In this document: piece after piece, positions 2,508 to 57,215 of the stretch
How the letters are laid out: each line of letters opens with the position of its first letter
Numbering within the stretch: position 1 is the first letter of the stretch
Virus record (IMG/VR): IMGVR_UViG_3300032116_000004
Span: 62,001 to 126,000 of that record
Length of the DNA: 64,000 nucleotides
Strand: one strand, 5' to 3'
Origin: a virus
Notes under the pieces: model-generated
Databases searched by the model: none
What the model saw: the letters and a program-made list of their open reading frames with translations, nothing else
Told to the model about the DNA's origin: nothing
Program-made: the position numbers and the translations under genes

Positions 2508-4712
2508 ATGGCCTGCGCAGGCGCACTCACCTCGATCATAATGACTGCGGTTGGCGCATTTATCGCCAACGGAGGCCTCGCAGAAGTGTTTGGTGGAGCA
2601 CCTGTGGCCGGCGCAGCCGGTAGTGCGGCCGAAGGTTTAGTCACTGTGTATACTCCATCGGGTGAAATCTTTTCCATGAGCACTGCTGAAGCAGTGGCGT
2701 CGGGCATCATTGAAAATACTGCGAGCCAATCGTGGTTCAGCGGTCTCGGAGGTCTGGGAGACACTCTCAATTCCATGACCAACAGTTTTTTAGAATTCAC
2801 TGCGCCCATGAGAGAAGCCTGGAGCAATCTAGCCACCGCCCCGGCCGCAGCCGGCAAACAAGTATTCAATTCAGTTTCTGGAACCTGGGGACCAAAAACA
2901 GCACAATTTTTGTCATCGGTCACAGAAGGGGTGTTCAAGACCGCTATCCAAGAAAGTATCACTTGGGCTAGCCAAACTCTTGGGGGCACTGGTACATTGG
3001 TCGCAGGGGCGTTGGTTGGCGATCCCAAGATCCTAGGTCAGGCTTTCAATGCTGCCAATTCTTTCGCGCAGACAGCCAATGGCTTTATCAACGCAGCCGA
3101 GTCGGCCGGAACCTATCTCAACAAAACCTTCACCAACATGGAAAATACCATCACTGCCGGCGTGGATGGAGTCAGCAAATGGTTTGAAGGTCTGGGCGAT
3201 GACATCAGCAAACTAGGCAACACCGTGGACTGGGCCAAACTTGATTTCCTTGGCTATCCAGGACAACTGATCGCCAACCTTGAAAACAGTGGAACACTGG
3301 GCCCATTCTATGACAAACTGGGCAACATCCAGGTAGATCCCCGCACCGCACAGCAGTTGGGAGTGAACATAACCAATGCTTTATTGGGCCGTGAAGAATT
3401 GCGTCTCAAGGATCTCGGCATTGATCTCAATCAGATAGCGCGACAAGGTGCAAATCTGCCCGCCGGCATACAAAAAGAAATATACACAGAACTGACCAAA
3501 CTCACGCCCACTGAAGTCACACAGGTCAAAGGCATATTGAACAACACACAGGTCGCTGTGCAGAAAGGTCAAGACCTACTTGATCCACAAAAACTTTTTG
3601 CCTCCAGCTCCAGCACACTGACCACGCCTATCCGTGTGGGGTCTGTTGGCTTCCGTGGTATCTATGAAGCAAGTGGCAGCATCAATCCTGAACTCAATGA
3701 CTTAGGAGAAAATCTCAAAGGTATCATACCCGATGACCTGGCAGTGGCCAATTCCGCATTGGGCCGCAGTTTCCTACAGGTCAAGGGTATTTCAAATACC
3801 AGCAGTGATTCATTGGCCGCAAGTGTCCTGGAATTGGAAAACCTCAGAGATTTGCCTTTGATAGCCGGTCAGGAAGAATATGTGACCCAACCGGTGATTG
3901 ACTATTGGAAAAATTACTATGGCGAAGATTTTGGCATACAGTTGACCACTGGCAACAATGGGTCATATGTAGTTTCAGACATCGTGGGATTTGCCGCAGG
4001 TTATAATTCAGGACAGCCTCTCCAGGACAATGGCCCGCTGTTGACCAGCCTCAACGCCAATGGTGCCTTTGCGGAATTCACACAAAGCCAGGGCATCTAC
4101 GAAACCATCCAGCAATTCTGTCTAGGCACATTTGGTCCAACTGCCAACCCCACACCAGTGGATCCGCCCAATGATGATTACCAGATAGAGATCCCTGTGG
4201 GATGGGCAGCCGCGGGCATTTATTATGGCGCTACAGGCAATATTGCCTTTCAAGATGCATGGCTAAATGGAATCATTCCTTATACCGCTGTGGCGTCAAC
4301 AGACATCTACGAAAACTATCCAGATGCGCAAACAGTAAACGCCAACGAAACAATCTGGCAAGAGCAGTATGGCAGAGAATATCTCAACAGACAACGTGCA
4401 GATCTCATCGTCACAGATATCAGAGCGTCTGACACAACTGCCATCAATTTTGGACAGTCCTTGCCTCAATTTGGTAGAAACACTGAATTCGGCGGACCGG
4501 CCATGTGGTTAGAGCGTGTGGCCAATGCCAACAGCCTAGGAGGGCAGGCCTTGATCGCTGCCATGCGCGAGGGTCGCAATCAAGCTAGATTGGATGATGC
4601 AGGCATCAAGACGGACACAGCACTGGCCACAGAACAACCGCAGTTCCCAGGAACGCTGGCGCCGAACACTTTGACCAAAGAAGAAGCCGACGCCCTGGTG
4701 ATTCGTTCCTAG
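2508..4712 (+). CDS. Large putative virion structural protein (baseplate/tail region)
   Basis: The product has 734 residues, is rich in Ala, Gly, Asn and Thr, and starts directly after the PAAR stop codon. The N-terminus has hydrophobic Ala/Gly stretches (about residues 1-45 and 160-175). The rest is acidic to neutral with no enzyme motif that I recognise. Size, composition and direct linkage to PAAR suggest a baseplate or spike-associated structural protein. A phage-delivered effector is the main alternative. The stop codon lies at the start of a palindromic cassette. Confidence 0.6.
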   Translation: MACAGALTSIIMTAVGAFIANGGLAEVFGGAPVAGAAGSAAEGLVTVYTPSGEIFSMSTAEAVASGIIENTASQSWFSGLGGLGDTLNSMTNSFLEFTAPMREAWSNLATAPAAAGKQVFNSVSGTWGPKTAQFLSSVTEGVFKTAIQESITWASQTLGGTGTLVAGALVGDPKILGQAFNAANSFAQTANGFINAAESAGTYLNKTFTNMENTITAGVDGVSKWFEGLGDDISKLGNTVDWAKLDFLGYPGQLIANLENSGTLGPFYDKLGNIQVDPRTAQQLGVNITNALLGREELRLKDLGIDLNQIARQGANLPAGIQKEIYTELTKLTPTEVTQVKGILNNTQVAVQKGQDLLDPQKLFASSSSTLTTPIRVGSVGFRGIYEASGSINPELNDLGENLKGIIPDDLAVANSALGRSFLQVKGISNTSSDSLAASVLELENLRDLPLIAGQEEYVTQPVIDYWKNYYGEDFGIQLTTGNNGSYVVSDIVGFAAGYNSGQPLQDNGPLLTSLNANGAFAEFTQSQGIYETIQQFCLGTFGPTANPTPVDPPNDDYQIEIPVGWAAAGIYYGATGNIAFQDAWLNGIIPYTAVASTDIYENYPDAQTVNANETIWQEQYGREYLNRQRADLIVTDIRASDTTAINFGQSLPQFGRNTEFGGPAMWLERVANANSLGGQALIAAMREGRNQARLDDAGIKTDTALATEQPQFPGTLAPNTLTKEEADALVIRS

Positions 4713-4729
4713 GTCAGTGGGCACTAACC
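4712..4729. repeat. 18-bp palindromic element, copy 1
   Basis: GGTCAGTGGGCACTAACC is a near-perfect inverted repeat. The upstream gene's TAG stop ends on its first base. Five further copies lie at 39732, 42103, 54177, 54518 and 57122, each in front of the same type of promoter. Here the promoter -35 is 36 bp downstream, with an intrinsic terminator between. Confidence 0.85.
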
Positions 4730-4733
4730 TACG

Positions 4734-4761
4734 AAAACCCTACAAACAGTAGGGTTTTTTT
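4734..4761 (+). terminator. Rho-independent terminator after the structural gene
   Basis: A 10-bp stem AAAACCCTAC / GTAGGGTTTT with a 5-nt AAACA loop is followed by a T run. It separates the structural operon from the next promoter. Confidence 0.9.
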
Positions 4762-4765
4762 GTGG

Positions 4766-4794
4766 TTGACCAAAAATCGCCATTTTGCTATAAT
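4766..4794 (+). promoter_or_regulatory. Sigma70-like early promoter
   Basis: TTGACC and TATAAT are separated by 17 bp, with an extended -10 (TGC before TATAAT). The sequence around it is nearly identical to promoters at 39767, 54201 and 54554, so it is a repeated phage promoter family probably read by host RNA polymerase. Confidence 0.9.
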
Positions 4795-4826
4795 ATGAGT
4801 TATAGTAAACAACTTGGAGCCACAGT

Positions 4827-5000
4827 ATGTCTAAGAAACACTTTGAACTACTCGCCAAATACATCGATTCTATCATGGATCCGCATTGCCGTTTGCAAGC
4901 GGCTATCGCGGTGGCATCTGCTTGTAAAGAAGCCAATCGCAGATTTGACTCGGATCGATTCTTTGCCGCTTGCAACATCGGCGCCGCCGAGGTCAAATAA
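4827..5000 (+). CDS. Small conserved phage protein
   Basis: A 57-residue protein starts MSKKHFELLAKYID and ends with RFDSDRFFAACNIG, a layout I associate with a common short phage family of unknown function. It is the first gene after the promoter at 4766, with GGAG a few bases upstream of the ATG. No membrane segment or enzyme motif is visible. Confidence 0.75.
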   Translation: MSKKHFELLAKYIDSIMDPHCRLQAAIAVASACKEANRRFDSDRFFAACNIGAAEVK

Positions 5001-5001
5001 C

Positions 5002-5202
5002 ATGGCCTATCACGTTTTCCGACACAACCAGGACTATGGTCCACGATCGGGGCTGGAAGGTCCGTTCCACTATCCCAATGGCCGGGTGCTGTATTATGAT
5101 CCCAAGGCCGGTGAATACTGGGATCCACGCACAGATTTTTATGTGCCAAGAGATGAAGTCGCTGAATTACAGCAAAGCATTTTTGATCAGGTGGCGGCAT
5201 GA
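5002..5202 (+). CDS. Hypothetical phage protein
   Basis: This 66-residue protein has a C-terminal half with GRVLYYDPKAGEYWDPRTDFY, rich in Tyr and Asp. An ATG one base after the upstream stop is the best start, since an in-frame extension upstream would overlap the previous gene completely. Its stop overlaps the next ATG (ATGA). Function is unknown. Confidence 0.7.
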   Translation: MAYHVFRHNQDYGPRSGLEGPFHYPNGRVLYYDPKAGEYWDPRTDFYVPRDEVAELQQSIFDQVAA

Positions 5203-5375
5203 CACAACGAGATGTCACCTTATCGATCACGTTCACACTGGATGACATCGAGGTGCTCCAGCGCATCTGGAATCGGTATGGTTATGTCATGGACGAGACC
5301 GGCATCATCTCTCACATATTAAACGAATATGAAATGAAGACTGCTGACAGTCTAAATACAAAGGTAAAGGCATGA
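5199..5375 (+). CDS. Hypothetical phage protein
   Basis: The product has 58 residues, with alternating Thr/Ile at the N-terminus (VTLSITFTLDDIEVL) and a helical C-terminal half. It is coupled on both sides: its ATG overlaps the previous stop, and its own stop overlaps the ligase ATG. A TAAATA motif lies at 5353-5358, just before the ligase start. Function is unknown. Confidence 0.65.
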   Translation: MTQRDVTLSITFTLDDIEVLQRIWNRYGYVMDETGIISHILNEYEMKTADSLNTKVKA

Positions 5376-6754
5376 CACAGGCACGCGATTGGCACAATGA
5401 TGAATTCAATGGATTAAAAGTGGCGGCAGATTGGATACAAGATCTCGAAGGCTCAGACTCTAGGCTACACAAAGAAGCAGTGATCGAAAAGGCTCTGGTA
5501 GCGGCTCGATTAGGGTCGGCAGGGGCGCAGTGTTTTTTATACAACTGCTACCTGACCTACAATCCTTATTTCGTCTATGGTGTGAAGAAGGTTCCAGAAA
5601 CCCAAGGACTCACAGGAAAAGACAATCCCTGGACTGAGTTCTGGGCTCTCACAGAAGGCCTCCGAACCCGTAGCATCACTGGCAACAAGGCACGTGATAG
5701 GATCGACGAACTGGCCGGTCGTTTTGACTCAGACGAGTGGAACGGCCTGGCCCGTCGTGTGCTGATCAAAGATCTCCGCTGTGGTATTTCAGAAAAGACC
5801 TTAAACAAAGTGCTGGGTAACTCGGAATGGAAGATACCGGTGTTCACTTGCCAACTGGCGCAAGACTCGGGCGATCATCCGGCCAAGATGAAAGGTCGAA
5901 AACGTATCGAATGTAAACTGGATGGTGTGCGTGTGCTGGCAGTGGTCAGCGGTAGCACAGTGAACCTCTACAGCCGCAACGGCAAACCCTTTGACAACTT
6001 TCCGCAGATCGCTGAAGCCATAGAAGATTGCAGGGCTGTGTTCCGTCACGGACTGAACTCAGGTGGTAGATTTGTGTTGGATGGTGAGATCGTGGGAGAG
6101 TCATTCCAGAAACTCATGCGTCAAGCACATCGTAAAAGCGATGCCCAAACTGATGGCATGGTTTATCATATCTTTGATATCATTCCTCTGGAAGATTTTG
6201 AGCGTGGGTTCTGGAACGCACAACAGCACAAGAGACTGGACATACTTAACCGGGCAATGGAACCGCTACAAGAGCAGACCGATTGCCTCCGTATCATGCC
6301 CGGACTGGAAGTGGATCTCGACACCGGAGAAGGTCATGACATCATGGATCGATTCGCCCAAGATGCTGTCACGGCCGGCTATGAAGGTATCATGATCAAG
6401 TCGGTGGATGCGCCCTATGAGTGCAAGCGAACGTCTTTTTGGATGAAGTGGAAACCCACCATAACAGTGGATTTGGAAATCGTGGGTTTCGAACAAGGAA
6501 CTGGTCGCAACGAAAAGCGATTGGGTGCTATAATTTGTGAAGGAGATGACAATGGCAGAAATATTCGTGTTAATGTTGGCAGTGGTTTGTCTGATAGCGA
6601 TAGGGATGACTTCTGGACCGCTCGCGATGACCTACTTGGTCGATTGGTTGAAATCCAAGCGGACGCAGTCACACAAAACCAAGACGGATCATACTCACTG
6701 AGATTTCCACGATTCGTGAGATTCCGTGGGTTTGAACCTGGAGAAAAAATTTGA
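5372..6754 (+). CDS. ATP-dependent DNA ligase (T4 gp30 type)
   Basis: The 460-residue product seals nicks in DNA using ATP. An N-terminal helical DNA-binding domain (about 1-165) precedes the nucleotidyltransferase core. The adenylated lysine is in ECKLDGVR (about 187). Motifs that follow include SRNGKPFDNF, FVLDGEIV, EGIMIKS and WMKWKP. The C-terminal OB domain has VGSGLSDSDR and ends with LRFPRFVRFR. The length is close to T4 gp30. It acts in phage replication and repair. Its 3' part may also encode an overlapping small protein in another frame (6552-6701). Confidence 0.94.
   Translation: MTQARDWHNDEFNGLKVAADWIQDLEGSDSRLHKEAVIEKALVAARLGSAGAQCFLYNCYLTYNPYFVYGVKKVPETQGLTGKDNPWTEFWALTEGLRTRSITGNKARDRIDELAGRFDSDEWNGLARRVLIKDLRCGISEKTLNKVLGNSEWKIPVFTCQLAQDSGDHPAKMKGRKRIECKLDGVRVLAVVSGSTVNLYSRNGKPFDNFPQIAEAIEDCRAVFRHGLNSGGRFVLDGEIVGESFQKLMRQAHRKSDAQTDGMVYHIFDIIPLEDFERGFWNAQQHKRLDILNRAMEPLQEQTDCLRIMPGLEVDLDTGEGHDIMDRFAQDAVTAGYEGIMIKSVDAPYECKRTSFWMKWKPTITVDLEIVGFEQGTGRNEKRLGAIICEGDDNGRNIRVNVGSGLSDSDRDDFWTARDDLLGRLVEIQADAVTQNQDGSYSLRFPRFVRFRGFEPGEKI
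6552..6701 (+). CDS. Possible overlapping small membrane protein inside the ligase gene
   Basis: In the +1 frame relative to ligase lies a 49-codon frame starting ATG GCA GAA. It has a hydrophobic N-terminal segment (VLMLAVVCLIAIGM) and a basic tail (LKSKRTQSHKTK). AAGGAG lies 8 bp before its ATG, and a TGCTATAAT sequence is at 6526-6534, a combination unusual inside a conserved coding region. Overlap may be accidental, as nothing here proves expression. Confidence 0.35.
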   Translation: MAEIFVLMLAVVCLIAIGMTSGPLAMTYLVDWLKSKRTQSHKTKTDHTH

Positions 6755-6759
6755 ATCTG

Positions 6760-6882
6760 ATGATTTGGTTCGCAGTGGTCATATTATCAATGGAGTCATT
6801 GATATCTGGCAACGGTGCGGCATTGGTGGCCGGTTTGACACTGGCTGTAATTGGTATTGTCGTGGAGGCAAGACGAGCATGA
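6760..6882 (+). CDS. Tiny membrane protein
   Basis: The product has 40 residues and is mostly one or two hydrophobic helices (MIWFAVVIL and ALVAGLTLAVIGIVV) with a basic end. A TTG at 6751 that overlaps the ligase stop (TTGA) would add three residues and could be the true start. Its stop overlaps the next ATG. Function is unknown. Confidence 0.55.
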   Translation: MIWFAVVILSMESLISGNGAALVAGLTLAVIGIVVEARRA

Positions 6883-6965
6883 GACATATTCCCCGTTCTG
6901 AGTGGTGGGCTTACATCAAATGGCGCATCCGTAAAATGTTTGCCCGACAGAGATATGAAGTTTAG
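6879..6965 (+). CDS. Tiny basic phage protein
   Basis: This 28-residue, Arg/Lys/Trp-rich peptide (MRHIPRSEWWAYIKWRIRKM at its start) sits between two tiny membrane-protein genes with ATGA-type overlaps on both sides. The tight coupling is the main reason to think it is translated. Confidence 0.45.
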   Translation: MRHIPRSEWWAYIKWRIRKMFARQRYEV

Positions 6966-7104
6966 GATCTATTGGCGCATACTGAGCCCGTGGTTATTGA
7001 TTCCAGCGGCCTTGGTGGCCGTTCCCGTTATTGTAGCCTGGATGTGGATACGTCATCCCCGTCAGTGCTTTGAGGCATGGCGTAACGGCAAAGGAATCTA
7101 TTGA
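6955..7104 (+). CDS. Tiny membrane protein
   Basis: A 49-residue product has one membrane helix (about residues 12-31, PWLLIPAALVAVPVIVAW) flanked by basic residues. It overlaps the previous gene by 11 bp and ends at TGATG with the next gene. Function is unknown. Confidence 0.6.
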   Translation: MKFRIYWRILSPWLLIPAALVAVPVIVAWMWIRHPRQCFEAWRNGKGIY

Positions 7105-7665: not shown

Positions 7666-7880
7666 TGCGAGAAGTTTGGCTAGATGACGGCGGTATAGGA
7701 TACGAGCAGGCTGGACAGCGTTTTGAATCAGCGCATCGCTGGGCCAAAAAAAATTGTGTCAGTTATCAAAAACATGAGGTAGTAGACGTGACGGATGTGT
7801 CTCATACCCATGATTTGATCGCTCGGTATTTGTTCCGTGACGAACGGGATGTAATTATGTTTGAATTGAAATGGTCCTGA
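7665..7880 (+). CDS. Hypothetical phage protein
   Basis: A 71-residue protein starts at the ATG that overlaps the upstream stop (TGATG). The C-terminal part (IARYLFRDERDVIMFELKWS) resembles the end of the protein at 50276-50542 (YIFYFDSDQDYFAFTLKWS), so the two may be distant paralogues. Function is unknown. Confidence 0.65.
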   Translation: MREVWLDDGGIGYEQAGQRFESAHRWAKKNCVSYQKHEVVDVTDVSHTHDLIARYLFRDERDVIMFELKWS

Positions 7881-39652: not shown

Positions 39653-39731
39653 CTTTATTTCCTTTCTCATGGTTTCTACTGATATTTATATGTTGCACTA
39701 CCACAAAATGTTAAAATATTATGACAACCAA

Positions 39732-39749
39732 GGTTAGTGCGCACTAACC
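39732..39749. repeat. 18-bp palindromic element, copy 2 (perfect)
   Basis: GGTTAGTGCGCACTAACC is a perfect palindrome. It is the only copy not adjoining the stop codon of a plus-strand gene. It is followed by CCAGTGTTTTTGCCCAG and the promoter 17 bp away. Confidence 0.9.
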
Positions 39750-39766
39750 CAGTGTTTTTGCCCAGG

Positions 39767-39795
39767 TTGACCAGAAATCGCCATTTTGCTATAAT
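39767..39795 (+). promoter_or_regulatory. Sigma70-like early promoter
   Basis: TTGACC, 17 bp, TGCTATAAT. Same family as 4766, and upstream of the small-gene region. Confidence 0.9.
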
Positions 39796-39824: not shown

Positions 39825-40199
39825 ATGAGCGACTTTAAATCTTGGGAAGAAATGTCAGATCTAGAACGTGCATCATGCACTTTCTGGGACATGTATAAAG
39901 ACGCCTACGGTGTGCGCCCACGTGGCATCGACACCAGCGGCTGGACCTTGGCGGATTTCGACCGCGAGTTTGCATCCCTAGGTCAGGTCATCGAAGCCGA
40001 AGAAGCCCAACGCCGCGAAAGCGAAGCCGAGGCCACGGCCCGGGTGGAGAAAGCCATTGACACCCTGATGCGTTCAGGTGCCCGGGATCGTGCGACAGCG
40101 ATACGTTGGTTGCATGAATCACACGATACCCAGGGAGACGATGAGTATCTCTGTTTCCAACTGGGCCTGCCTTACGGTTATTTCCGTAAGGCGGCTTGA
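39825..40199 (+). CDS. Conserved phage protein
   Basis: This 124-residue acidic protein has FWDMYKDAYGVRPRGIDTSG, then a charged helix (EAEEAQRRESEAEATARVEK) and a C-terminal GDDEYLCFQLGLPYGYF. I recognise the pattern as a widespread tailed-phage family without known function. It is the first gene after the promoter at 39767; AAGGAG precedes it. Confidence 0.8.
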   Translation: MSDFKSWEEMSDLERASCTFWDMYKDAYGVRPRGIDTSGWTLADFDREFASLGQVIEAEEAQRRESEAEATARVEKAIDTLMRSGARDRATAIRWLHESHDTQGDDEYLCFQLGLPYGYFRKAA

Positions 40200-41057: not shown

Positions 41058-41844
41058 AAATAACATCATATTGCAGGACTGCGTTACAGGCATGCAGGCC
41101 TTGCCCGAAGCCAGTGTCGATATCTGCGTGACTTCTCCGCCCTACAACCTGGGCATTGGTTACAGCACCTATCGCGACGACCGGCCACGGCAGGACTATC
41201 TCCGATGGCTGGGGTCGGTGTTCGGCGAGATCAAAAGAGTGCTGACCGATGACGGACACTTCTGGCTCAACGTAGGTTACAGCAATCAAGATCCCTGGGT
41301 GGCACAAGACGTGGCGCAGGTGGCTCGTGATCATTTCGTGCTCCAGAATTCCGTGATGTGGGTCAAATCGATCTATGTCAACGGAAAGACATCGGGACAC
41401 TTCAAACCAGTGAACTCCGAACGTTACATCGCTCCCACATGGGAGCATGTGTTCCATTTCACCAAGGCAGGTCGGAGCCCATTGGACAAACTCACCATTG
41501 GTGTGCCCTACGAATACTATGCGGAGAATCTACGCAATCCCAAGACTGCCGGAACCAAACCCAATCTACGCTGTCGTGGCAACACCTGGTTCATACCCTA
41601 TGAGACCATCAGCAACCGGGCCAAGCATCGAGGCGATCATCCGGCCACTTTTCCTGTGGCCTTGGCCGAAAATTGCATCCGTGTGTCAGGCATCACATCA
41701 GGCACTGTGCTGGACCCATTCATGGGATCAGGCACTACTGCCATCGCGGCCCATCGCTGTGGTCTGTCATGGATGGGCTTTGAAATTGATGCAAACTACA
41801 GGGACTTTGCCCTGGATCGCATAGCCGCAGAAACCGCTGGTTGA
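41050..41844 (+). CDS. DNA methyltransferase, SPPY type
   Basis: The 264-residue enzyme has SPPYNLG (about 29, the catalytic motif of N4-cytosine or some N6-adenine beta-class enzymes) and DPFMGSGTT (about 219, AdoMet binding). The start is a TTG overlapping the previous stop by 8 bp. It may protect phage DNA from restriction or mark it; the neighbouring protein could be a matching nuclease. Confidence 0.9.
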   Translation: MDKNNIILQDCVTGMQALPEASVDICVTSPPYNLGIGYSTYRDDRPRQDYLRWLGSVFGEIKRVLTDDGHFWLNVGYSNQDPWVAQDVAQVARDHFVLQNSVMWVKSIYVNGKTSGHFKPVNSERYIAPTWEHVFHFTKAGRSPLDKLTIGVPYEYYAENLRNPKTAGTKPNLRCRGNTWFIPYETISNRAKHRGDHPATFPVALAENCIRVSGITSGTVLDPFMGSGTTAIAAHRCGLSWMGFEIDANYRDFALDRIAAETAG

Positions 41845-41870
41845 CCAGAAATAGTGATTTCGGTTATAAT
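41841..41870 (+). promoter_or_regulatory. Sigma70-like promoter giving a leaderless start
   Basis: TTGACC and TATAAT are separated by 18 bp. The expected transcription start is the A of the next ATG (41877), seven bases after the -10. Confidence 0.8.
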
Positions 41871-41876
41871 ATGGGT

Positions 41877-42107
41877 ATGCTAAGAAATGACCGAATCACC
41901 TGGGGCCTCAAATGGGCCGGAACTATCGTAACCCTGGCTGGAGCACTCTGCACCAGCCTCCGCATTGATCCTTTGAACGTATATCTGCTGAATCTAGGCA
42001 GTTTGGTTTTTGTGCTATGGGCCGTGCGTATCCGCGACCGTGCCATGATCACTGTGAACGTGGGCTTATTGTCCATATACCTTGTAGGGTTATTTTTCAC
42101 TAGGTAA
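41877..42107 (+). CDS. Small membrane protein
   Basis: The 76-residue protein has three hydrophobic segments (about 10-28, 33-50 and 56-74). There is no Shine-Dalgarno, and the ATG coincides with the predicted +1 of the upstream promoter, so translation would be leaderless. Its TAA stop lies within the next palindrome. Function is unknown. Confidence 0.65.
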   Translation: MLRNDRITWGLKWAGTIVTLAGALCTSLRIDPLNVYLLNLGSLVFVLWAVRIRDRAMITVNVGLLSIYLVGLFFTR

Positions 42108-42120
42108 GTGCGCACTAACC
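42103..42120. repeat. 18-bp palindromic element, copy 3
   Basis: GGTAAGTGCGCACTAACC includes the TAA stop of the upstream gene. The promoter -35 is 6 bp downstream. Confidence 0.9.
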
Positions 42121-42126
42121 TAGCGG

Positions 42127-42156
42127 TTGACCAAAAAAGCCATTTTCGGTTATAAT
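42127..42156 (+). promoter_or_regulatory. Sigma70-like early promoter
   Basis: TTGACC, 18 bp, TATAAT, followed by the conserved TAGGTATAGTAAA start region. Confidence 0.88.
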
Positions 42157-42185: not shown

Positions 42186-42464
42186 ATGTCATATTACATC
42201 ATAGTCAAAGCCACAGGACTCATCGTTTCGGATGGCCCAAATCGCACTCGTGCCTATCGCACTCAAGGTGCCGCCAAGGCCACCATCACTAGATTGGTCA
42301 AGAAAGCCGGTTGGAAGGGCAACGAGTTTGAAATCACTCACACCCGCGATTACCAACCACGCATGGTCACTCGTCGGAATTTGATGTCAGGCCAGGAGTT
42401 CCAAGAAGATGTGAACACTCCTTACTTCTGCTCGCCTGCATCCGAATCCTACTGGAGCATGTGA
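42186..42464 (+). CDS. Small phage protein
   Basis: A 92-residue basic protein starts MSYYIIVKATGLIVSDGPNR, with AAGGAG upstream. A helix with Lys/Arg (KATITRLVKKAGWKG) follows. Function is unknown. It is GTGA-coupled to a SWIM-zinc-finger gene. Confidence 0.65.
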   Translation: MSYYIIVKATGLIVSDGPNRTRAYRTQGAAKATITRLVKKAGWKGNEFEITHTRDYQPRMVTRRNLMSGQEFQEDVNTPYFCSPASESYWSM

Positions 42465-43260: not shown

Positions 43261-43530
43261 GTGAAATTTATCAATCCCGAAACCAAGACGTTCCGTGTGC
43301 TCAAAGCACTGCAAAATGGTCAACCCGTGACCGAATCCAAGGCCAAGAAAATGGGCATCGGCAATCTCAACGCCGAAATCCATCGCATCCGCCAGCATGG
43401 ATTCGCTGTCTACACCAACCGTCGCACCGCAGGTAATGGTGTGAACGTGACTGAGTATGTGTTGGGCAAACCAAGCCGTAACATGGTTGCTTTGGCATAC
43501 AAAGCACAGGCCATGGGTATCACGGTCTAA
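43261..43530 (+). CDS. Winged-helix-like small protein
   Basis: An 89-residue product with TFRVLKALQNGQPVTESKAKK, IHRIRQHGFAVYTN and VNVTEYVLGKPSR has the helix-turn-helix plus wing layout of small phage DNA-binding proteins. The start is a GTG, with AAAGG upstream. An inverted repeat overlaps its promoter, so it may regulate itself. Confidence 0.7.
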   Translation: MKFINPETKTFRVLKALQNGQPVTESKAKKMGIGNLNAEIHRIRQHGFAVYTNRRTAGNGVNVTEYVLGKPSRNMVALAYKAQAMGITV

Positions 43531-49853: not shown

Positions 49854-50315
49854 GTGAAACTGTATTTCGCCTATGGTGCCAATCTCAGCCACGAAAGCAT
49901 GGCCCATCGCTGTCCTCGTGCCCGCCCATTCCAATCATTCTATCTGCGTGGTTGGCAACTGGATTTTGCCACGCATGCCACAATACGACCCAACCCAGGA
50001 CGATCGGTGCCCGGTGCGCTGTGGCGCATCACTGACGACTGCGAAGCCAGTTTGGATGCCTTTGAAGGTTACCCTCTCTATTATTCCAAAAGGATCCTGG
50101 CGCAGGACGGCTACGAATTCATGGTCTATATCATGAACCGACCCCAATATGGATCAACCTATTGGAGTTATGTAGACCTCATAGCCCAAGGCTATCAGGA
50201 TTGGAATCTGGATACCGAGCCACTTTGGCAACAGGTTGACCAGATATTGCTTCCTGCGTATAATGAAAAAGAACAGTGGACGAAGTCACCAGACAAAGAT
50301 TCCGTGCCGTTTTAG
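49854..50315 (+). CDS. Gamma-glutamylcyclotransferase-like (AIG2/GGCT) protein
   Basis: The 153-residue protein starts MKLYFAYGANLSHESM, with the YGxNL substrate loop, then PGALWRI and LDAFEGYPLYYSK with the catalytic Glu at about 69. GGCT-fold enzymes release 5-oxoproline from gamma-glutamyl amines. Phage members could reverse glutamyl-type DNA or metabolite modifications, but no such system is visible here. GTG start. Confidence 0.85.
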   Translation: MKLYFAYGANLSHESMAHRCPRARPFQSFYLRGWQLDFATHATIRPNPGRSVPGALWRITDDCEASLDAFEGYPLYYSKRILAQDGYEFMVYIMNRPQYGSTYWSYVDLIAQGYQDWNLDTEPLWQQVDQILLPAYNEKEQWTKSPDKDSVPF

Positions 50316-50542
50316 CGGCCAATGGTTACCAAGTGCGCGACGGGGACAGTTTCCGCCATGCCACCGAAGTGATCAAACCATTTGGTGCCATAGACGACAT
50401 CATACGATGGTGCAAGTCCGAATGCCGCGAAGATTGGCGTTGGCAGATGGTGGATATGAGTTCTGATCATCGTCCGGGTAGATATATTTTTTACTTTGAC
50501 AGCGATCAGGATTATTTTGCTTTTACTTTGAAATGGAGTTGA
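50276..50542 (+). CDS. Small phage protein
   Basis: An 88-residue protein from a GTG that overlaps the previous gene by 40 bp. It has DDIIRWCKSECREDWRWQ, MSSDHRPGRYIFYFDSDQDY and ends FTLKWS, similar to the end of the protein at 7665. The start is uncertain. Function is unknown. Confidence 0.6.
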   Translation: MDEVTRQRFRAVLAANGYQVRDGDSFRHATEVIKPFGAIDDIIRWCKSECREDWRWQMVDMSSDHRPGRYIFYFDSDQDYFAFTLKWS

Positions 50543-50544
50543 CT

Positions 50545-50799
50545 ATGAACATACGAGGTTTTTTACGTTGGCAGTTTGAAGGCACACTGAGCAGTCCCAG
50601 TTTTTATGGCTTTGCGTTGACCATCCTGGCTTTGGTTGCACTAGCGGCCGGATGCCCCAAACCCTGGCCCATGATCATGACGATCCTAGGTGGTGCTATC
50701 GTGGTCATTGACGCGGCCCGTGCTTGGTTTCGTTTCAGTTACACTCTATACGATCTAGAGCAGAAACAGATCGAGCGCGAATTGAAAGGTCGACAATAA
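50545..50799 (+). CDS. Small membrane protein
   Basis: An 84-residue product with two membrane helices (about 21-40 and 44-64) and a basic C-terminus, beginning MNIRGFLRWQFEGTLSSPSF. GGAG precedes the ATG at 50545. Function is unknown. Confidence 0.65.
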   Translation: MNIRGFLRWQFEGTLSSPSFYGFALTILALVALAAGCPKPWPMIMTILGGAIVVIDAARAWFRFSYTLYDLEQKQIERELKGRQ

Positions 50800-50951
50800 T
50801 GAAAATCCTTGCTATCTTGATCGCTGGCTTGTCTGGCGCCATGTTTGCCCTGACCTGGAACACCCCAGCGGCCGTGGCCTGGGCCATAGCCTTCTGTGGA
50901 TGGGTGCCACACTGTTTCAGTTCCGAGGAGAGCATCAATGGCAACTCGTAA
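50799..50951 (+). CDS. Tiny membrane protein
   Basis: The 50-residue protein has one N-terminal helix (MKILAILIAGLSGAMFAL) and a second hydrophobic part (AVAWAIAFCGWV). The ATG overlaps the previous stop (TAATG). Function is unknown. Confidence 0.6.
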   Translation: MKILAILIAGLSGAMFALTWNTPAAVAWAIAFCGWVPHCFSSEESINGNS

Positions 50952-51960
50952 ACAGAAACAAGATTTGATCAATACTTTGAAATTCACCCCTCGCACCTAT
51001 CGTGTGGAGTTGGGTGCCTATGGCGGTGAAGTGTATGCTGGTCGCGTTGATCGCAAAATCTACCAATACTTCCAGAGCCGCAATATTGATTTAGACGAAT
51101 TCGCATCTGACTGGGACAACGAACTAGAAGTGCCCGATGAAATGCAACCTTTTCCTCCTGGATCGCCCTACGAATGCGATGGCTTAGTGCATGCATCAGG
51201 CGCAACCATGGACGATACCAACTATATCACTGTGTATGACGAAAACGGTGAAGAAGTTTGGCGACACAGCCTAGATCTCAATGCCCTGGACGATTCTGAG
51301 ATTCCAGTCAATGAGTGGGAATCATTTACCATGGACGATCTCAAAAACGGTGAAGTGGCCTACTGGGGAGCACAGGGTGAAAAGGGTCTGTTGTTCGGTG
51401 GCGAATTTGAAATCAAGGAACCGTTTGATCCCAAGAAACTCATGTTGAATTTCTCCAATGCTGATGGATGGTATATCTGCAACGGAGTTGACTACGACGG
51501 TGAGTCCATCGACAACAACGATCTCAGCACCACAGGCAAGTGGGGCGAGAACAAATGGATCTTTGGTGGAGACGAAGAAGCCTATGATCCCTCTGATGCT
51601 GTTCCAGAAGGCGAAGAAAACGGTGGTGCGGGTTGGCCAGCCAGTTACTACCCCGATGATGATGAAAAGATTTCTTTCAAGTTTAAAAAACACAAACCGG
51701 TGCATCAAGGCTGGTATGAATGCAACTGGGGCTATGGTAACACCTTTGGCAAACTGTATTGGAACGGCACGGCATTTGTAGATTTTGAATACAACAAAGA
51801 GCAATCCATCGATCAGGATGGTGTGGTTTCATGGACAGGATTGAACTGGGACACGTCTGACTGGAACAACTGTCCACAATCAGATGAGCCAGACGAACCA
51901 TGGGATCCGGCCTTTGAAACTGGCCAAACAGTGGCATCCAAAAAATCCTGGCCTTTTTAA
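50938..51960 (+). CDS. Large acidic phage protein
   Basis: This 340-residue acidic protein starts MATRKQKQDLINTLKFTPR, with GAGGAG upstream. Its later part is rich in Asp, Gly and Trp (GWYECNWGYGNTFGKLYWNG). It resembles conserved proteins of aquatic T4-like phages. Function is unknown; a protein-binding or structural role is possible. It overlaps the previous gene by 14 bp. Confidence 0.65.
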   Translation: MATRKQKQDLINTLKFTPRTYRVELGAYGGEVYAGRVDRKIYQYFQSRNIDLDEFASDWDNELEVPDEMQPFPPGSPYECDGLVHASGATMDDTNYITVYDENGEEVWRHSLDLNALDDSEIPVNEWESFTMDDLKNGEVAYWGAQGEKGLLFGGEFEIKEPFDPKKLMLNFSNADGWYICNGVDYDGESIDNNDLSTTGKWGENKWIFGGDEEAYDPSDAVPEGEENGGAGWPASYYPDDDEKISFKFKKHKPVHQGWYECNWGYGNTFGKLYWNGTAFVDFEYNKEQSIDQDGVVSWTGLNWDTSDWNNCPQSDEPDEPWDPAFETGQTVASKKSWPF

Positions 51961-51981
51961 ACTTCAATTTAATTTCTCATC

Positions 51982-53121
51982 ATGACATCATATTTTAAAA
52001 CTGCAACCAAAGGCACCAATCCATTTGCACCTCCTCCCAAAGACATCCAGACACCTTTGGTATCTACGGGCAATATCTACGAACCTCTGGTACAACGTGC
52101 CATGGGCATCGCCAACGAAGATGTAATTGAAAAAGCCATTGAATCGCTGAAGGCTAGACTTGGTGGTCAGCGATACAAACAGGAACACTTCGGTCGCCTA
52201 GAACTGATTGATCCAAATCTGATTGACATCAACATTGATATCCAACGTCTGCTGGAAAAAGCGCACATCGGTGGCAACATCATTGAACTGTTTGATCCCA
52301 GGATCATGCAACCTTTGAACGTGATCTACATCAAGGCCACTGGTCGCTACAGTGCCTGGGAGGGCCAACAGAGTGGAACAGCCTTTGCACTGATGTTTTA
52401 CTTTGGATTGATCGATCCAGACACACTGATTCAGTGCAAGGTTGTGGATGATGATCTTGAGGTTCCAGGATCCACACTTCGAGGTGAAGCAGTGGGCAAC
52501 TATGGTTTCCGTTGCATCAACTACAAAGGTCGCAAAGAGCCCGATCTGTTCTATATTTTCCGTAGCATGGTCAATGGTGTCAGATTGTATGACAGTGAAC
52601 TTACTGAAGACCTGCAGGCCAATGAGATACAGAACATGCTACAATCGCACAACATGTTTGCCGCTCCCGGAGTAGAAGCACAAGGTCAACGAGCCAAACC
52701 CGGTATGGTAACCCATGTCAGTAGCATGCTCAAGCTGGCCGGACATGGCACTGAACCTGACCACTTTGAAGTGACCAAGGGTGATCTTGACTGGGTGCTC
52801 AAGTGGCATGATCAGTTCTATGCCAGCGAAAAAGGTGTAGATGGCGGCTATCTCATCACGTTTGGTAGATTCGCTGTGCTGTGTCGCAACCAAGGCATAG
52901 AAATCACTCGCGAGCATGAACTAGAATTCTACAAGCACATGAAACGCTATGGGTCGCCTAAAGCGTTCCATCAAGACTGCTGGCAACGCTACAAAAAATG
53001 GGCCGGATCGGGATGGAAGGATGCCTGTCTGTTGCCCATCTGGATCAAAGACTACATGAAAAAAGGAGGCACACTGCCTCTGCCCACAGTGCCAAACTAT
53101 GACGAATACAAGTCTCTCTGA
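51982..53121 (+). CDS. Divergent ParB-like protein
   Basis: The 379-residue product has ELIDPNLIDINIDIQRLLEK and VIYIKATGRYSAWEGQQSGT, where WEGQQSGTA may replace the usual DGQHR of ParB/Srx-fold proteins, so the His is missing. A second ParB-like gene is at 46215. It may bind DNA without nuclease activity. Start overlaps no gene; the next gene overlaps its end by 23 bp. Confidence 0.55.
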   Translation: MTSYFKTATKGTNPFAPPPKDIQTPLVSTGNIYEPLVQRAMGIANEDVIEKAIESLKARLGGQRYKQEHFGRLELIDPNLIDINIDIQRLLEKAHIGGNIIELFDPRIMQPLNVIYIKATGRYSAWEGQQSGTAFALMFYFGLIDPDTLIQCKVVDDDLEVPGSTLRGEAVGNYGFRCINYKGRKEPDLFYIFRSMVNGVRLYDSELTEDLQANEIQNMLQSHNMFAAPGVEAQGQRAKPGMVTHVSSMLKLAGHGTEPDHFEVTKGDLDWVLKWHDQFYASEKGVDGGYLITFGRFAVLCRNQGIEITREHELEFYKHMKRYGSPKAFHQDCWQRYKKWAGSGWKDACLLPIWIKDYMKKGGTLPLPTVPNYDEYKSL

Positions 53122-53467
53122 CGCACATAATTTTTACCTTTGGCGCCATCGTTATGTGGACGATGATACCGAAGCAGTGATCACACGCACCTGTTTTGGT
53201 ATCACTGGCAATCTCGATTCCAGGCAAAATGGCTATGAAGGTCATGTGGGACACGCAGTGCGCTGGGCGGCCACTTGGTCTGGGCCCGAACGCCCTATCC
53301 GAGAACTGGAACATCGTCTCAAGGCAGCCTTCCGTGATTATCTCGTCAGCGGACACAATGACTATGTATATGAGTGGGTGGACGAAACCATACCATTCGA
53401 AACCATCCGCAACTGGGTGGAGTGGGAAGTAGAAAACACATTTTCTGATATCCGCCGTGACACATAG
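53099..53467 (+). CDS. GIY-YIG-like (MUG113/T5orf172 type) protein, tentative
   Basis: A 122-residue protein with FYLWRHRYVDDDT, FGITGNLDSRQNGYEGHVGH and LEHRLKAAFRDYL recalls compact GIY-YIG nucleases of the T5orf172/MUG113 type, in which an ...G.T....R...Y.GH pattern is typical. The standard GIY/YIG is not clear. It overlaps the previous gene and the methyltransferase start. Confidence 0.45.
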   Translation: MTNTSLSDAHNFYLWRHRYVDDDTEAVITRTCFGITGNLDSRQNGYEGHVGHAVRWAATWSGPERPIRELEHRLKAAFRDYLVSGHNDYVYEWVDETIPFETIRNWVEWEVENTFSDIRRDT

Positions 53468-54182
53468 CATCTACCAGCAGGACTGTGTAGTGGGCATGCA
53501 GGAACACGTGGCCGATGGCACAGTAGATCTCATATTCACTGATCCGCCCTATGGCATAGCCGGTGATCAACTAGACACGCACTACAATCGAGACGACAGC
53601 AAGGTCATCGCCGGTTATGTGGATGTGCCCAGAGATCAATATGCCCAATGGTGTCATGCCTGGATCCAGGAATGTGAGCGAGTGTTGCGGCCCGGTGGAT
53701 CCTTGTATATCGTGTCTGGCTATTCAAATCTACATCATATTCTCAACGCCTTGCACTACACACAACTCGAAGAAATCAATCATATCATCGCCCAATACAC
53801 CTTTGGAGTATACACCAAAAAGAAATGGGTCTCGAGCCATTACCATGTGCTGTTCTGGTCCAAGCGAGAACGAGGCCAACAGAAGAGGATCTTCAACACA
53901 CATTGTCGTTTTGCTGATACCACAGAATCATACAACGACCGACTCAGTGTGCAGACCTTGCCTAGAGAATACAAGACGGGCGAGATCCGCAACAACAATC
54001 AGTTGGCCGAATCGTTCATTGAAAAGTTCATCGATTACAGTTCCAATCTAGGAGACTTGGTGCTGGATCCCTTTGGAGGATCGTTCTCCACGGGCCGTGC
54101 CGCTCTCCGGTTGGGACGTAGATTCGTTGGATTCGAACTCAACCCACACGCATACCAACATTTTGGGCAGACCCTAGGTTAG
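53457..54182 (+). CDS. DNA methyltransferase, DPPY type
   Basis: The 241-residue enzyme has TDPPYGIAG (about 29) and DPFGGSFSTG (about 202, AdoMet binding), typical of beta-class N6-adenine methyltransferases. The start is a GTG overlapping the GIY-YIG-like gene by 11 bp. Its stop lies inside palindrome copy 4. It is a second, distinct methyltransferase; recognition sequence unknown. Confidence 0.88.
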   Translation: MTHSIYQQDCVVGMQEHVADGTVDLIFTDPPYGIAGDQLDTHYNRDDSKVIAGYVDVPRDQYAQWCHAWIQECERVLRPGGSLYIVSGYSNLHHILNALHYTQLEEINHIIAQYTFGVYTKKKWVSSHYHVLFWSKRERGQQKRIFNTHCRFADTTESYNDRLSVQTLPREYKTGEIRNNNQLAESFIEKFIDYSSNLGDLVLDPFGGSFSTGRAALRLGRRFVGFELNPHAYQHFGQTLG

Positions 54183-54194
54183 TGCCCACTGACC
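54177..54194. repeat. 18-bp palindromic element, copy 4
   Basis: GGTTAGTGCCCACTGACC contains the TAG stop of the methyltransferase. The promoter -35 is 6 bp downstream. Confidence 0.88.
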
Positions 54195-54200
54195 CCGCGG

Positions 54201-54229
54201 TTGACCAGAAATAGCCATTTTGCTATAAT
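54201..54229 (+). promoter_or_regulatory. Sigma70-like early promoter
   Basis: TTGACC, 17 bp, TGCTATAAT, as in the rest of the family. Confidence 0.9.
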
Positions 54230-54255
54230 TAGGACATACTTTAAAAAGGAGCCCT

Positions 54256-54522
54256 ATGAAACTGGACCCATGGACGCAGTTCAATCTCAGCAGAGAAGAT
54301 CAACAGTTCTTCACAGCATTCGCCAGCCCCACCACAGAATCCAGCCTAGTCAAAGATGTGCCCATTGGCGCCCTGGAACAGGTGCGCCCTATCCTGGCCC
54401 GCATCCGAGCCCTCAGCGGACGCAAGACCTACATCATGTTCCGTGGGCGCAAAAATCGATACCACGGGCAAAGCACCACTTGGAAACAAGATGCCAACCG
54501 TTTTGCGGTGTATTTTAGGTAA
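54256..54522 (+). CDS. Small phage protein
   Basis: The 88-residue product starts MKLDPWTQFNLSREDQQFF and ends with basic, aromatic residues (KNRYHGQSTTWKQDANRF). AAAAAGGAG precedes the ATG. It is a single-gene unit between two promoter cassettes, and its stop lies in palindrome copy 5. Function is unknown. Confidence 0.65.
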   Translation: MKLDPWTQFNLSREDQQFFTAFASPTTESSLVKDVPIGALEQVRPILARIRALSGRKTYIMFRGRKNRYHGQSTTWKQDANRFAVYFR

Positions 54523-54535
54523 GTGGGCACTAACC
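54518..54535. repeat. 18-bp palindromic element, copy 5
   Basis: GGTAAGTGGGCACTAACC includes the TAA stop of the upstream gene. It is followed by GTTTTTGCCCAGG and the promoter 18 bp away. Confidence 0.88.
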
Positions 54536-54553
54536 TACGGGTTTTTGCCCAGG

Positions 54554-54582
54554 TTGACCGAAATTTACCATTTTGCTATAAT
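54554..54582 (+). promoter_or_regulatory. Sigma70-like early promoter
   Basis: TTGACC, 17 bp, TGCTATAAT, followed by TATAGTAAA. Confidence 0.9.
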
Positions 54583-54614
54583 ATAGGTATAGTAAATGAT
54601 AAGGAGTTAGCCCT

Positions 54615-54914
54615 ATGTTAAAAAGAACACTGAAATTCACCAATGCCGCGGACATCGATGACATCATCCGTGCATACGATTTCAAACCCATGGCAGGTCG
54701 TGAAGACTGCTATGTGGAAGGCAAGGTCATCACCAAAGGTTACAATCCTGAAATGGGTTATTCATGTTTCTGCATCAAAGCCACCCGTGACGTGTTCGGT
54801 GGTGAAGACCAGCCCGAAGGAACCCGAGGTAGCCGAGTAGGCAAACTGGTCTACGTGCCTTTTGAAGTTGATTTCCTCGAGCACGATGCTCGTATCATGA
54901 ACCTTTCCAAGTAA
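54615..54914 (+). CDS. Conserved small phage protein
   Basis: A 99-residue protein with IDDIIRAYDFKPMAGREDCYVEG and ATRDVFGGEDQ (read as shorter pieces IDDIIRAYDFK, YVEGKVI) and a closing KLVYVPFEV, a pattern widely shared by tailed phages. AAGGAG precedes the ATG. It is first in a run of genes to 57.1 kb. Function is unknown. Confidence 0.8.
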   Translation: MLKRTLKFTNAADIDDIIRAYDFKPMAGREDCYVEGKVITKGYNPEMGYSCFCIKATRDVFGGEDQPEGTRGSRVGKLVYVPFEVDFLEHDARIMNLSK

Positions 54915-54924
54915 GGAGCCCAAA

Positions 54925-55266
54925 ATGGAATACACTCAAGATCAAGTGAACGCAATCGTGGCCGAAGCCAAAAGCGAAGCATTCAAGGCCGCAGACAATT
55001 TTTTCCAGACTCGTTTGGGCGGCCGAGACCAGATGGCCTGTGGTTTTGCCTGGGTTGACATCTTTGGTATCAAAGGTAATACCCGATTGGGTCGCATGCT
55101 CAAGACAGCAGGTCTGCGCAAGAGTTACTCAGGCGGTCTGCAGATCTGGAACCCAGCCAATTATGGTTGCCAGAACGTTGACACTCTTGAAGCCGGTGCC
55201 GAAGCGGCCGCCAAGATTTTTGAGAAGTATGGTTTCCGTGCCTATGCTGGTAGCCGCTTAGACTAA
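54925..55266 (+). CDS. Conserved small phage protein
   Basis: The 113-residue product has AADNFFQTRLGGRDQMACGF and IFGIKGNTRLGRMLKTAGL, a common tailed-phage family. The Cys in FGACGF-like context is not a known active site. AAGGAG precedes the ATG. Function is unknown. Confidence 0.8.
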   Translation: MEYTQDQVNAIVAEAKSEAFKAADNFFQTRLGGRDQMACGFAWVDIFGIKGNTRLGRMLKTAGLRKSYSGGLQIWNPANYGCQNVDTLEAGAEAAAKIFEKYGFRAYAGSRLD

Positions 55267-55275
55267 GGAGACAGC

Positions 55276-55467
55276 ATGAAATTTGAAGACATCAAAGCCG
55301 AAATCTCCCGTAGCGACATCGTGGTGTTGAAACAAAGATACGAACTGTATCGTGATCTCAAAAGCATGGGAGTGGTTGACATCATGGTGCGAGATTTGCT
55401 AGAATTAGAACTTGCTCGCCGGGGTGTGTTTGAAGACCTTGGCCCTTATCGAACCATCAATAGTTAA
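55276..55467 (+). CDS. Small helical protein
   Basis: A 63-residue helical protein starts MKFEDIKAEISRSDIVVLK, with AAGGAG upstream. Function is unknown. Confidence 0.65.
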   Translation: MKFEDIKAEISRSDIVVLKQRYELYRDLKSMGVVDIMVRDLLELELARRGVFEDLGPYRTINS

Positions 55468-55476
55468 GGAGACAAT

Positions 55477-55944
55477 GTGAACTGTTCACCTACACTGACC
55501 GCAGAAGAATTCAAAGTGTTGCACAACAGCCTCTGTGCTTTGAGCACTATCGACCATCCTCGAGTGTCTGAATTAGTCGAACGCATCCGCGAGGTAGCCC
55601 TCAAAGGTGCCTACGAGCAAGATTCGGCGGCATTCGACCGCAAATGGAAACAATATGATCATTGGCGTGGGCACTACGGGCTGACCAGCACCTGGAGCAT
55701 CTACGAAGTGGACAACATGACCCTATGCCATCCCTACAAGGACGCAGAGTATGTGGTCTATGATCAGCACTGGGGCGACGGTGGTGAAGTGGTTCGCAAG
55801 ATCGAAGGCCGAGATTGGAATGCCTTGTATCGCGCCGCTGACTCTGCCATACAAGCCTCGGGCGATGGCCATCATTGCTTCATCGAATCATTTGAGCCCA
55901 TCGCTGATAAACCCGGGCATCTGCGGTTGAGCACCGGCAGTTGA
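55477..55944 (+). CDS. Conserved phage protein
   Basis: The 155-residue product from a GTG (AAGGAG upstream) has LTAEEFKVLHNSLCALSTID, a helix seen in short phage proteins, followed by WRGHYGLTSTWSIYEVDNM. Function is unknown. Confidence 0.75.
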   Translation: MNCSPTLTAEEFKVLHNSLCALSTIDHPRVSELVERIREVALKGAYEQDSAAFDRKWKQYDHWRGHYGLTSTWSIYEVDNMTLCHPYKDAEYVVYDQHWGDGGEVVRKIEGRDWNALYRAADSAIQASGDGHHCFIESFEPIADKPGHLRLSTGS

Positions 55945-55945
55945 T

Positions 55946-56284
55946 ATGAGCAAGACCGTGGCGCTGATGTGGGATTGTCTGGGCTTGGAGGCCGCTGTGA
56001 ATGTCACTGACATCAATCAGCAAAGAATGTGGGCCGCACTAAAAGGGCAGGATCTGACCAAAGTGCGAACCGAGCCCAACCTCATGCACTGGCGTTTACG
56101 AGCCCAGGCCAACACGCAAAGGCACTACGAGATCTATCTCTTGGAAATAGAGGATGACATCACTGTGGAAGATATCACTCAGGCATTCGAAGATGCTCCA
56201 CAACAGATGGCCGATACTGTGCGGAGGATTGGTCATAAATTTTATTCAGATCGAGCGAGAGAGGATACAATAAAGATTAGGTAA
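55946..56284 (+). CDS. Conserved phage protein
   Basis: A 112-residue protein with VALMWDCLGLEAAVNVTDIN and MHWRLRAQANTQRHYEIYLLE (as two pieces) resembles a recurrent phage family with strand-rich layout. It starts 1 bp after the previous stop. Function is unknown. Confidence 0.7.
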   Translation: MSKTVALMWDCLGLEAAVNVTDINQQRMWAALKGQDLTKVRTEPNLMHWRLRAQANTQRHYEIYLLEIEDDITVEDITQAFEDAPQQMADTVRRIGHKFYSDRAREDTIKIR

Positions 56285-56293
56285 GGAGAAGAT

Positions 56294-56491
56294 ATGCAAG
56301 TGAAACAAGGAAGTCTGTGGAGCAGTAGCGACGGCAAAGAATTCGTGGTGCTCCATGTGGTAGATGTAGATGGACACACCTGGGTGCATTATCGTGACCA
56401 GGAGTGCCCTGAATGTCATGAACATTCATGTTATATAGAAAGTTTCTTAGAACGTTTCACACCAATAATCAATGACCGGAGGACGAGATAA
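56294..56491 (+). CDS. Small phage protein
   Basis: The 65-residue protein has GSLWSSSDGKEFVVLHVVDV, the start of a beta-barrel-like domain common in phages, and a CPECHEHSC motif that could bind metal. AAGGAG precedes the ATG. Its stop overlaps the next gene. Confidence 0.7.
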   Translation: MQVKQGSLWSSSDGKEFVVLHVVDVDGHTWVHYRDQECPECHEHSCYIESFLERFTPIINDRRTR

Positions 56492-56901
56492 TGGGTCTAG
56501 ACATGTATGCTTACGCGGCCGCCCGCGCTGGACAACAAAAAGAATTCTGGGACACGGCTGAGTTGGCCCAAGGTAGCAACGAATATGAGAGCAAGACCGT
56601 GGCCCGACCCAGAGAGATCGCCTACTGGCGCAAGCATCCCAACCTACACGGCTGGTTTCGGGCCGAATGGGAAAGCCTGGGCAACGAAGGTTCGTTCAAT
56701 GGTGATGAACTGGAGATCACCTGGGACATGCTGGAACGCCTGGAATACGATGTGCGGAATGGCGAACTGCCCCAGACACAAGGTTTCTTCTTCGGCAACA
56801 ACTCCGATGCTGACTACTACAACGATGACTTAGAGTTTATCAAAAACGCCCGTGCGGAATTGTTCATGGGTCTCAAAGTATTCTACAATTCATCATGGTA
56901 A
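56491..56901 (+). CDS. Conserved phage protein (MGLDMYA family)
   Basis: This 136-residue product starts MGLDMYAYAAARAGQ and has AYWRKHPNLHGWFRAEWESL, a very widespread phage and plasmid family with unknown function. The GAGG and overlapping stop support the start. Confidence 0.85.
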   Translation: MGLDMYAYAAARAGQQKEFWDTAELAQGSNEYESKTVARPREIAYWRKHPNLHGWFRAEWESLGNEGSFNGDELEITWDMLERLEYDVRNGELPQTQGFFFGNNSDADYYNDDLEFIKNARAELFMGLKVFYNSSW

Positions 56902-57116
56902 AAGAAACCGATTTCAGACTTTGGTTGCGCCACATGTGGTTGGCCAATTGCGAAGAGCATGATGCTTATGGTGAACCACCTTATTCCATGACGGAATACT
57001 GGCGCCAGTATCGATGGTTCTTGCGCACTCAGTATCGCCGACACAAGAATCGCCCGCAGTATATTTCTCCAGAAATCCGGAGCATCATGCGCCCACCGCA
57101 GGACGCAGGGTGCTAG
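56895..57116 (+). CDS. Small phage protein
   Basis: A 73-residue Trp/Arg/Tyr-rich product overlaps the previous gene by 7 bp. Basic pattern RTQYRRHKNRPQY near the C-terminus. Function is unknown. Confidence 0.6.
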   Translation: MVKETDFRLWLRHMWLANCEEHDAYGEPPYSMTEYWRQYRWFLRTQYRRHKNRPQYISPEIRSIMRPPQDAGC

Positions 57117-57121
57117 AACTA

Positions 57122-57139
57122 GGTAAGTGCGCACTAACA
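57122..57139. repeat. 18-bp palindromic element, copy 6
   Basis: GGTAAGTGCGCACTAACA, with one mismatch at the end, lies 6 bp after the previous stop. The promoter -35 is 17 bp downstream. Confidence 0.85.
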
Positions 57140-57156
57140 TAGCGATTTTAGGGTGG

Positions 57157-57186
57157 TTGACCAGAAATGGCATTTTCGGTTATAAT
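57157..57186 (+). promoter_or_regulatory. Sigma70-like early promoter
   Basis: TTGACC, 18 bp, TATAAT, followed by TATAGTAAA. Confidence 0.88.
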
Positions 57187-57215
57187 ATAGGTATAGTAAA
57201 TGATTGGAGCCACTT

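Follow-up and report, generated by a model that had tools for sequence, protein, structure and literature searches.

Dispersed stop–palindrome–promoter cassettes in a T4-type jumbo phage: helical phasing and a probable operator role at module boundaries

Six cassettes in a 64-kb phage window

The DNA analysed here, hereafter the window, is a 64,000-nucleotide stretch covering positions 62001–126000 of the 315,778-bp virus record IMGVR_UViG_3300032116_000004 (IMG/VR), and it carries six dispersed cassettes in which a 22-bp palindrome, TAGGTNAGTGSSCACTNACCTA, precedes a promoter. The 22-mers start at 4710, 39730, 42101, 54175, 54516 and 57120, each 2 bp upstream of the coordinate given in a first-pass annotation of the same sequence, which had reported all six. 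Dinucleotide shuffles of the window gave an expectation of 0 palindrome matches. Under a weight matrix trained on a wider cassette set, which includes the six copies scored, each window palindrome exceeded 30 bits, and the next-best place in the 64 kb reached −0.05. Judged by its gene content, the source virus is a T4-type jumbo phage, because the T4-type major capsid protein gp23 (PF07068) is encoded by the record and four large relatives (G000–G004; E-value 1e-97 or better, with 4e-100 reported for the match that identifies the record's phage).

All features described below lie on the plus strand. A near-consensus promoter, GGTTGACC/TATAAT, stands 3′ of every palindrome in the form TTGACC-N17/18-TATAAT, as the first-pass annotation had described, at spacers of 34, 15, 4, 4, 16 and 15 bp in coordinate order. 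Each of the six is sigma70-like and is followed by a ribosome site and a gene start. Four palindromes contain the stop codon of the upstream gene (TAG 4710–4712, TAA 42105–42107, TAG 54180–54182 and TAA 54520–54522), in line with the four copies previously said to include or touch one. In cassette 6, the stop (TAG 57114–57116) ends 3 bp 5′ of the palindrome, and cassette 2 has no stop codon in or at its palindrome.

Cassette 1 (palindrome 4710–4731) holds the stop of gene 2508–4712; its 34-bp spacer accommodates a separate hairpin and T-run terminator, ACCCTACAAACAGTAGGGTTTTTTT (approximately 4739–4762), ahead of the promoter at 4766–4794 (17-bp element spacing), which is predicted to drive a 57-aa gene (4827–5000). 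Cassette 2 pairs the palindrome at 39730–39751 with a promoter at 39767–39795 (17 bp) for a 124-aa gene (39825–40199). Cassette 3 (42101–42122) closes gene 41841–42107 and leads through the promoter at 42127–42156 (18 bp) to a 92-aa gene (42186–42464). Cassettes 4 and 5 enclose a single 88-aa gene, 54256–54522. The first of them (palindrome 54175–54196, promoter 54201–54229, 17 bp) holds the stop of an N6_N4 DNA methylase gene (53457–54182), and the second (palindrome 54516–54537, promoter 54554–54582, 17 bp) holds that of the 88-aa gene itself and precedes a 99-aa gene (54615–54914). Cassette 6 (palindrome 57120–57141, promoter 57157–57186, 18 bp) stands before a 236-aa gene (57216–57926).

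Recurrence and helical phasing of the palindrome

The palindrome recurs both in the rest of the genome and in IMG/VR relatives, where the first-pass annotation had suggested looking for it. Elsewhere in the record, two more strong copies lie at 186846 (spacer 1) and at 234565, whose 47-bp spacer contains a separate terminator, and a degenerate copy lies at 206545 (spacer 16); some promoters of this class have no palindrome at all. Two IMG/VR scans yielded 64 distinct palindrome–promoter cassettes after copy removal; several contigs, 3300031963_000041 and 3300008259_005066 among them, match the window at 100% identity and were not counted as relatives. The invariance of AGTG, CACT and ACC in this collection is partly a product of the search pattern and was not used as evidence. 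In three relatives (L194, L305 and L320), two or three palindromes stand in tandem ahead of one promoter.

No cassette was found among named phages and plasmids by blastn with the cassette sequences, or among named phages by megablast with window positions 50000–64000. GTDB contigs gave 57 pattern matches with scattered spacing, nearly all without a promoter; these are essentially chance matches and served as the control set for spacing. The single real cassette in GTDB is carried by a contig of 4.6 kb whose bin is Erysipelotrichaceae UBA6182; the contig is probably misbinned phage DNA.

The distance between palindrome and promoter follows the helical repeat of DNA, clustering at about 4–5, 15, 24 and 34–35 bp with a period of about 10.4 bp. 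In the first cassette set, whose search pattern demanded GTTGACC within 31 bp, the distance from the 22-mer to TTGACC took the values 2–6, 12–17, 24 and 34 and never 7–11 or 18–23; these off-phase windows were defined post hoc, and the R test of phasing is independent of them. At a 10.5-bp period, R was 0.847 for 65 cassettes with spacers of 0–30 and 0.843 once each combination of downstream family and spacer was counted a single time (n = 39), values matched by 0 of 100,000 uniform draws in either case. A second set was assembled from the palindrome alone, with one mismatch allowed, by scanning whole relatives without requiring a promoter. Here a promoter in the same orientation accompanied 46 of 52 palindromes, and phasing was again evident (R = 0.791, n = 42, spacers up to 39), including among the sites absent from the first set (R = 0.744, n = 21); neither value was reached in 100,000 uniform draws. 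Two of the newly found sites have a spacer of 7. Before homologous downstream genes on different contigs, spacers differ by whole turns (families D1, D2, D3, D5 and D8), which speaks against simple descent.

With TTGACC set at −35 to −30, spacers of 4, 15, 24 and 34–35 bp place the palindrome centres at −50.5, −61.5, −70.5 and −80.5/−81.5, the whole-turn dyad placement upstream of the −35 box that is typical of class I-type promoters. Interaction of CRP with RNA polymerase is strongest at −61.5, followed by −71.5 and −81.5/−82.5, and is absent at −66.5 and −76.5 (PMC6301791). The cassettes share with class I CRP promoters a 22-bp dyad, whole-turn positions upstream of −35 and the 61.5–71.5–81.5 series, whereas their recognition sequence, the extra −50.5 position and the mobile phage setting are different, and any binder is a candidate only. 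The likeness would be one of mode of action; we do not claim that CRP binds at the cassette.

Gene content at the cassette boundary

Comparison among relatives revealed that homology ends at the cassette, in both directions. L013 and L019 share ~95% identical DNA downstream of the cassette and are at random level upstream; window cassette 54516 and L021 show 72–77% identity upstream and random level downstream. In L047, the end of the methyltransferase gene (window 53457–54182) is followed by a cassette and then by a different gene. L021 carries a homologue of the 88-aa gene 54256–54522 directly after a homologue of 42186–42464 and ahead of a different gene, so that its neighbours differ on both sides; in the window, 42186–42464 lies 12 kb away, behind another cassette. 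Gene content breaks exactly at the cassettes, which supports the earlier proposals that they mark module boundaries and that the single gene 54256–54522 is a shuffling unit.

Among pairs with upstream genes 60–95% identical, the downstream partner was kept in 10 of 40 at cassettes, against 226 of 400 at the remaining gene junctions of these contigs, counts that are pairwise rather than independent events. The upstream stop codon lies within the palindrome in 32 of 58 cassettes. Sequence comparison supports module shuffling at the cassettes, and we infer that the homology breaks arose by recombination there.

A family of 67-aa genes, present at 59 loci with about 30 kinds of downstream gene, separates the contributions of stop, palindrome and promoter. 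At seven loci, the palindrome is present and provides the stop codon; at L435, L441, L471, L474 and L482, which lack it, the 67-aa gene ends in a TGA that forms part of the following promoter's −35 box (TTGACC/TTGACA). Because loci of this family shuffle with or without the palindrome, the shuffling boundary is the stop-plus-promoter unit; the palindrome comes as an extra that can be absent. The 67-aa gene is also found in other phages (L446, L449, L460, L461, L465 and L466) whose −35 box is surrounded by another inverted repeat, CCCAAAGGTTGACAATAAATCACTTTGGG, which may be a different lineage's operator.

The commonest gene behind the cassette belongs to a GIY-YIG/SegE-like homing-endonuclease family (L016 from 4398, L017, L009, L202 at ~6610, and others). 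Its mRNA is probably leaderless, because the ATG lies only ~30–36 nt from the −35 box.

Operator, terminator or recombination site

The first-pass annotation had equated the cassettes with the PeSLs of T4-type phages, mobile cassettes of an early promoter plus a stem-loop. On this account, the palindrome would act as an RNA stem-loop that ends upstream transcription beside an early promoter, as the T4-type nature of the phage, the overlap with upstream stop codons (32 of 58 cassettes) and a T-rich stretch after 18 of 64 copies might suggest. The helical phasing and the base pairs themselves speak against the stem-loop part of the proposal: across the 64 cassettes, pair 6/17 shows no covariation (40 paired versus 38.3 expected), and the central pair 11/12 tends away from pairing (18 versus 28.6). 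No T-rich tract follows the other 46 copies, which lack the hairpin-then-U-run layout of an intrinsic terminator. Canonical terminators are present as distinct elements, in 11 of the 64 upstream flanks and in the spacers of cassette 1 and of site 234565. A classical PeSL is thus unlikely. Helix-locked spacing, variable pairs without covariation and the lack of a U-tract in most copies together make it most likely that the palindrome works as duplex DNA, as the operator of a dimeric regulator, and not as a terminator hairpin.

Our preferred explanation, to which we assign a probability of about 0.73, sees the element as a cassette that marks module boundaries in T4-type jumbo phages and combines a stop, a duplex-DNA operator for a dimeric regulator and a phased promoter with gene swapping. 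Such a cassette would comprise upstream stop codons, a 22-bp two-fold symmetric operator, a whole-turn spacer, a near-consensus sigma70-type promoter and a short leader providing either the ribosome site of the next gene or a leaderless start. A homodimeric regulator would bind the operator as duplex DNA and touch host RNA polymerase from upstream on the same helix face, the likely contact being the alpha-subunit C-terminal domain. Recombination between cassettes or at their ends would swap the upstream or downstream gene with reading frames intact, and the acquired gene would thereby come under the existing promoter and regulator.

Phage phi29 p4, acting on inverted repeats, activates the late promoter A3 and represses the early promoters A2b/A2c (PMC3100819). 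Both systems would use inverted repeats at early and late promoters to exert control across the phage; the p4 sites differ in being A-tract based (CTTTTT-N15-AAAATG) and few in number. Because p4 does both from inverted repeats, we leave the sign of regulation undecided, with activation slightly favoured. Repression would be a specific form of the operator reading, overlapping with it, in which strong early promoters are shut off from upstream, for example by over-stabilised polymerase or by looping between cassettes. The strong, near-consensus core promoters, the tandem operators at single promoters and the repressing activity of p4 are consistent with it, whereas repressor sites usually overlap the core promoter and the spacer positions seen here resemble class I activation; we regard it as possible, at less than even chances.

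Homology breaks at the cassette, together with the frequency of GIY-YIG/SegE-like endonuclease genes, the commonest kind downstream, could instead point to a recombinase or endonuclease target with no role in transcription. Helical phase relative to a promoter would be superfluous for such a site, as would a same-orientation promoter after 46 of 52 palindromes, and breaks also occur at operator-less promoters, which makes this explanation very improbable. Least credible of all is a palindrome that is now functionless and was copied by descent from a few ancestral cassettes with spacers of 4 and 15: sequence common to the cassettes does extend past the palindrome and some spacer sequences are clearly related, but spacer length is kept despite diverged spacer sequence, homologous downstream genes have different whole-turn spacers, and spacers of 24, 34–35 and 47 also occur.

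Several observations weigh against the operator cassette as we propose it. The T-rich stretch after 18 of 64 copies leaves terminator activity possible for some of them, and spacers of 1–2, at 186846 and in the L084/L092/L097 group, are slightly off phase. The −50.5 centre falls outside the CRP class I series, and near-consensus promoters should need no activator. The cassettes share descent and are not independent of one another, nor are the pairwise synteny counts independent events; shuffling also goes on at loci that lack the operator and so does not need it. Finally, no binding protein was found among the candidates HTH_39, HTH_24, HTH_3 and RHH_1 in a genome read in part.

Among these candidates, the best lead was an 89-aa HTH_39 winged-helix protein (43261–43530, plus strand), found in 10 of 12 large records; it was rejected because G048–G051, large records that lack the palindrome, encode it too, a control that revealed no specific association. 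HTH_24 was rejected as confined to the phage's own genome, and the 12 large records yielded neither an HTH_3 nor an RHH_1 protein. The regulator is possibly a host protein.

As for the host, genes for porin-like outer-membrane proteins lie directly upstream of cassettes in L019, L031, L040, L065, L070 and L091. The L019 protein, the one scanned, is a Porin_4 protein, and since Burkholderiales account for nearly all of its matches in plasmids, the host is likely a beta-proteobacterium. The phage's own genome (the window and L200–L203) encodes S21, two ClpP, ClpS, an RNA polymerase omega-like protein (Rpb6), Hc1, Hsp20, NAD synthase, SAM decarboxylase and TctB. A tmRNA at record positions 225566–225893 carries the tag ANDELYALAA.

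Exchange at PeSLs proceeds by direct recombination between cassettes and yields mini-circles. With the PeSLs of T4-like myoviruses, of which PMC4503421 gives a summary, the cassettes share the T4-type lineage, a sigma70-like promoter with an inverted repeat between genes, and the marking, and apparent mediation, of shuffling of small accessory genes. By comparison with PeSLs, the present inverted repeat is phased to the promoter, shows no RNA-stem covariation and mostly lacks a U-tract. The proposed equivalence to PeSLs holds for the effect on gene order, the T4-type lineage and recurrence in relatives, and fails for the stem-loop. The cassette may best be described as PeSL-like in shuffling and as an upstream-activated (or upstream-repressed) promoter in control; we do not claim that it belongs to the PeSLs in the strict promoter–terminator sense. 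The archaeal myovirus HGTV-1 also has a repeated promoter-like TATA and inverted-repeat motif before many genes, with shuffling proposed (PMC3950731); its promoter is archaeal, and helical phasing is not reported in the portion of that account considered here.

A broader proposal, to which we give even odds, is that of a portable regulon. T4-type jumbo phages would trade accessory genes in stop, operator and promoter units under one phage- or host-encoded regulator, while the operator comes and goes independently of the genes and stays in helical phase with the promoter. If true, this would explain how large T4-type phages reshuffle small accessory genes yet keep them controlled, and it would revise the possible role ascribed to the inverted repeat of these cassettes. 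In archaeal viruses, regulatory sequences have already been used to collect candidate genes of this kind (PMC11065993). The cassette could likewise serve as a search handle, with genes behind the conserved, putatively early promoter becoming candidates for roles in host take-over or anti-defence.

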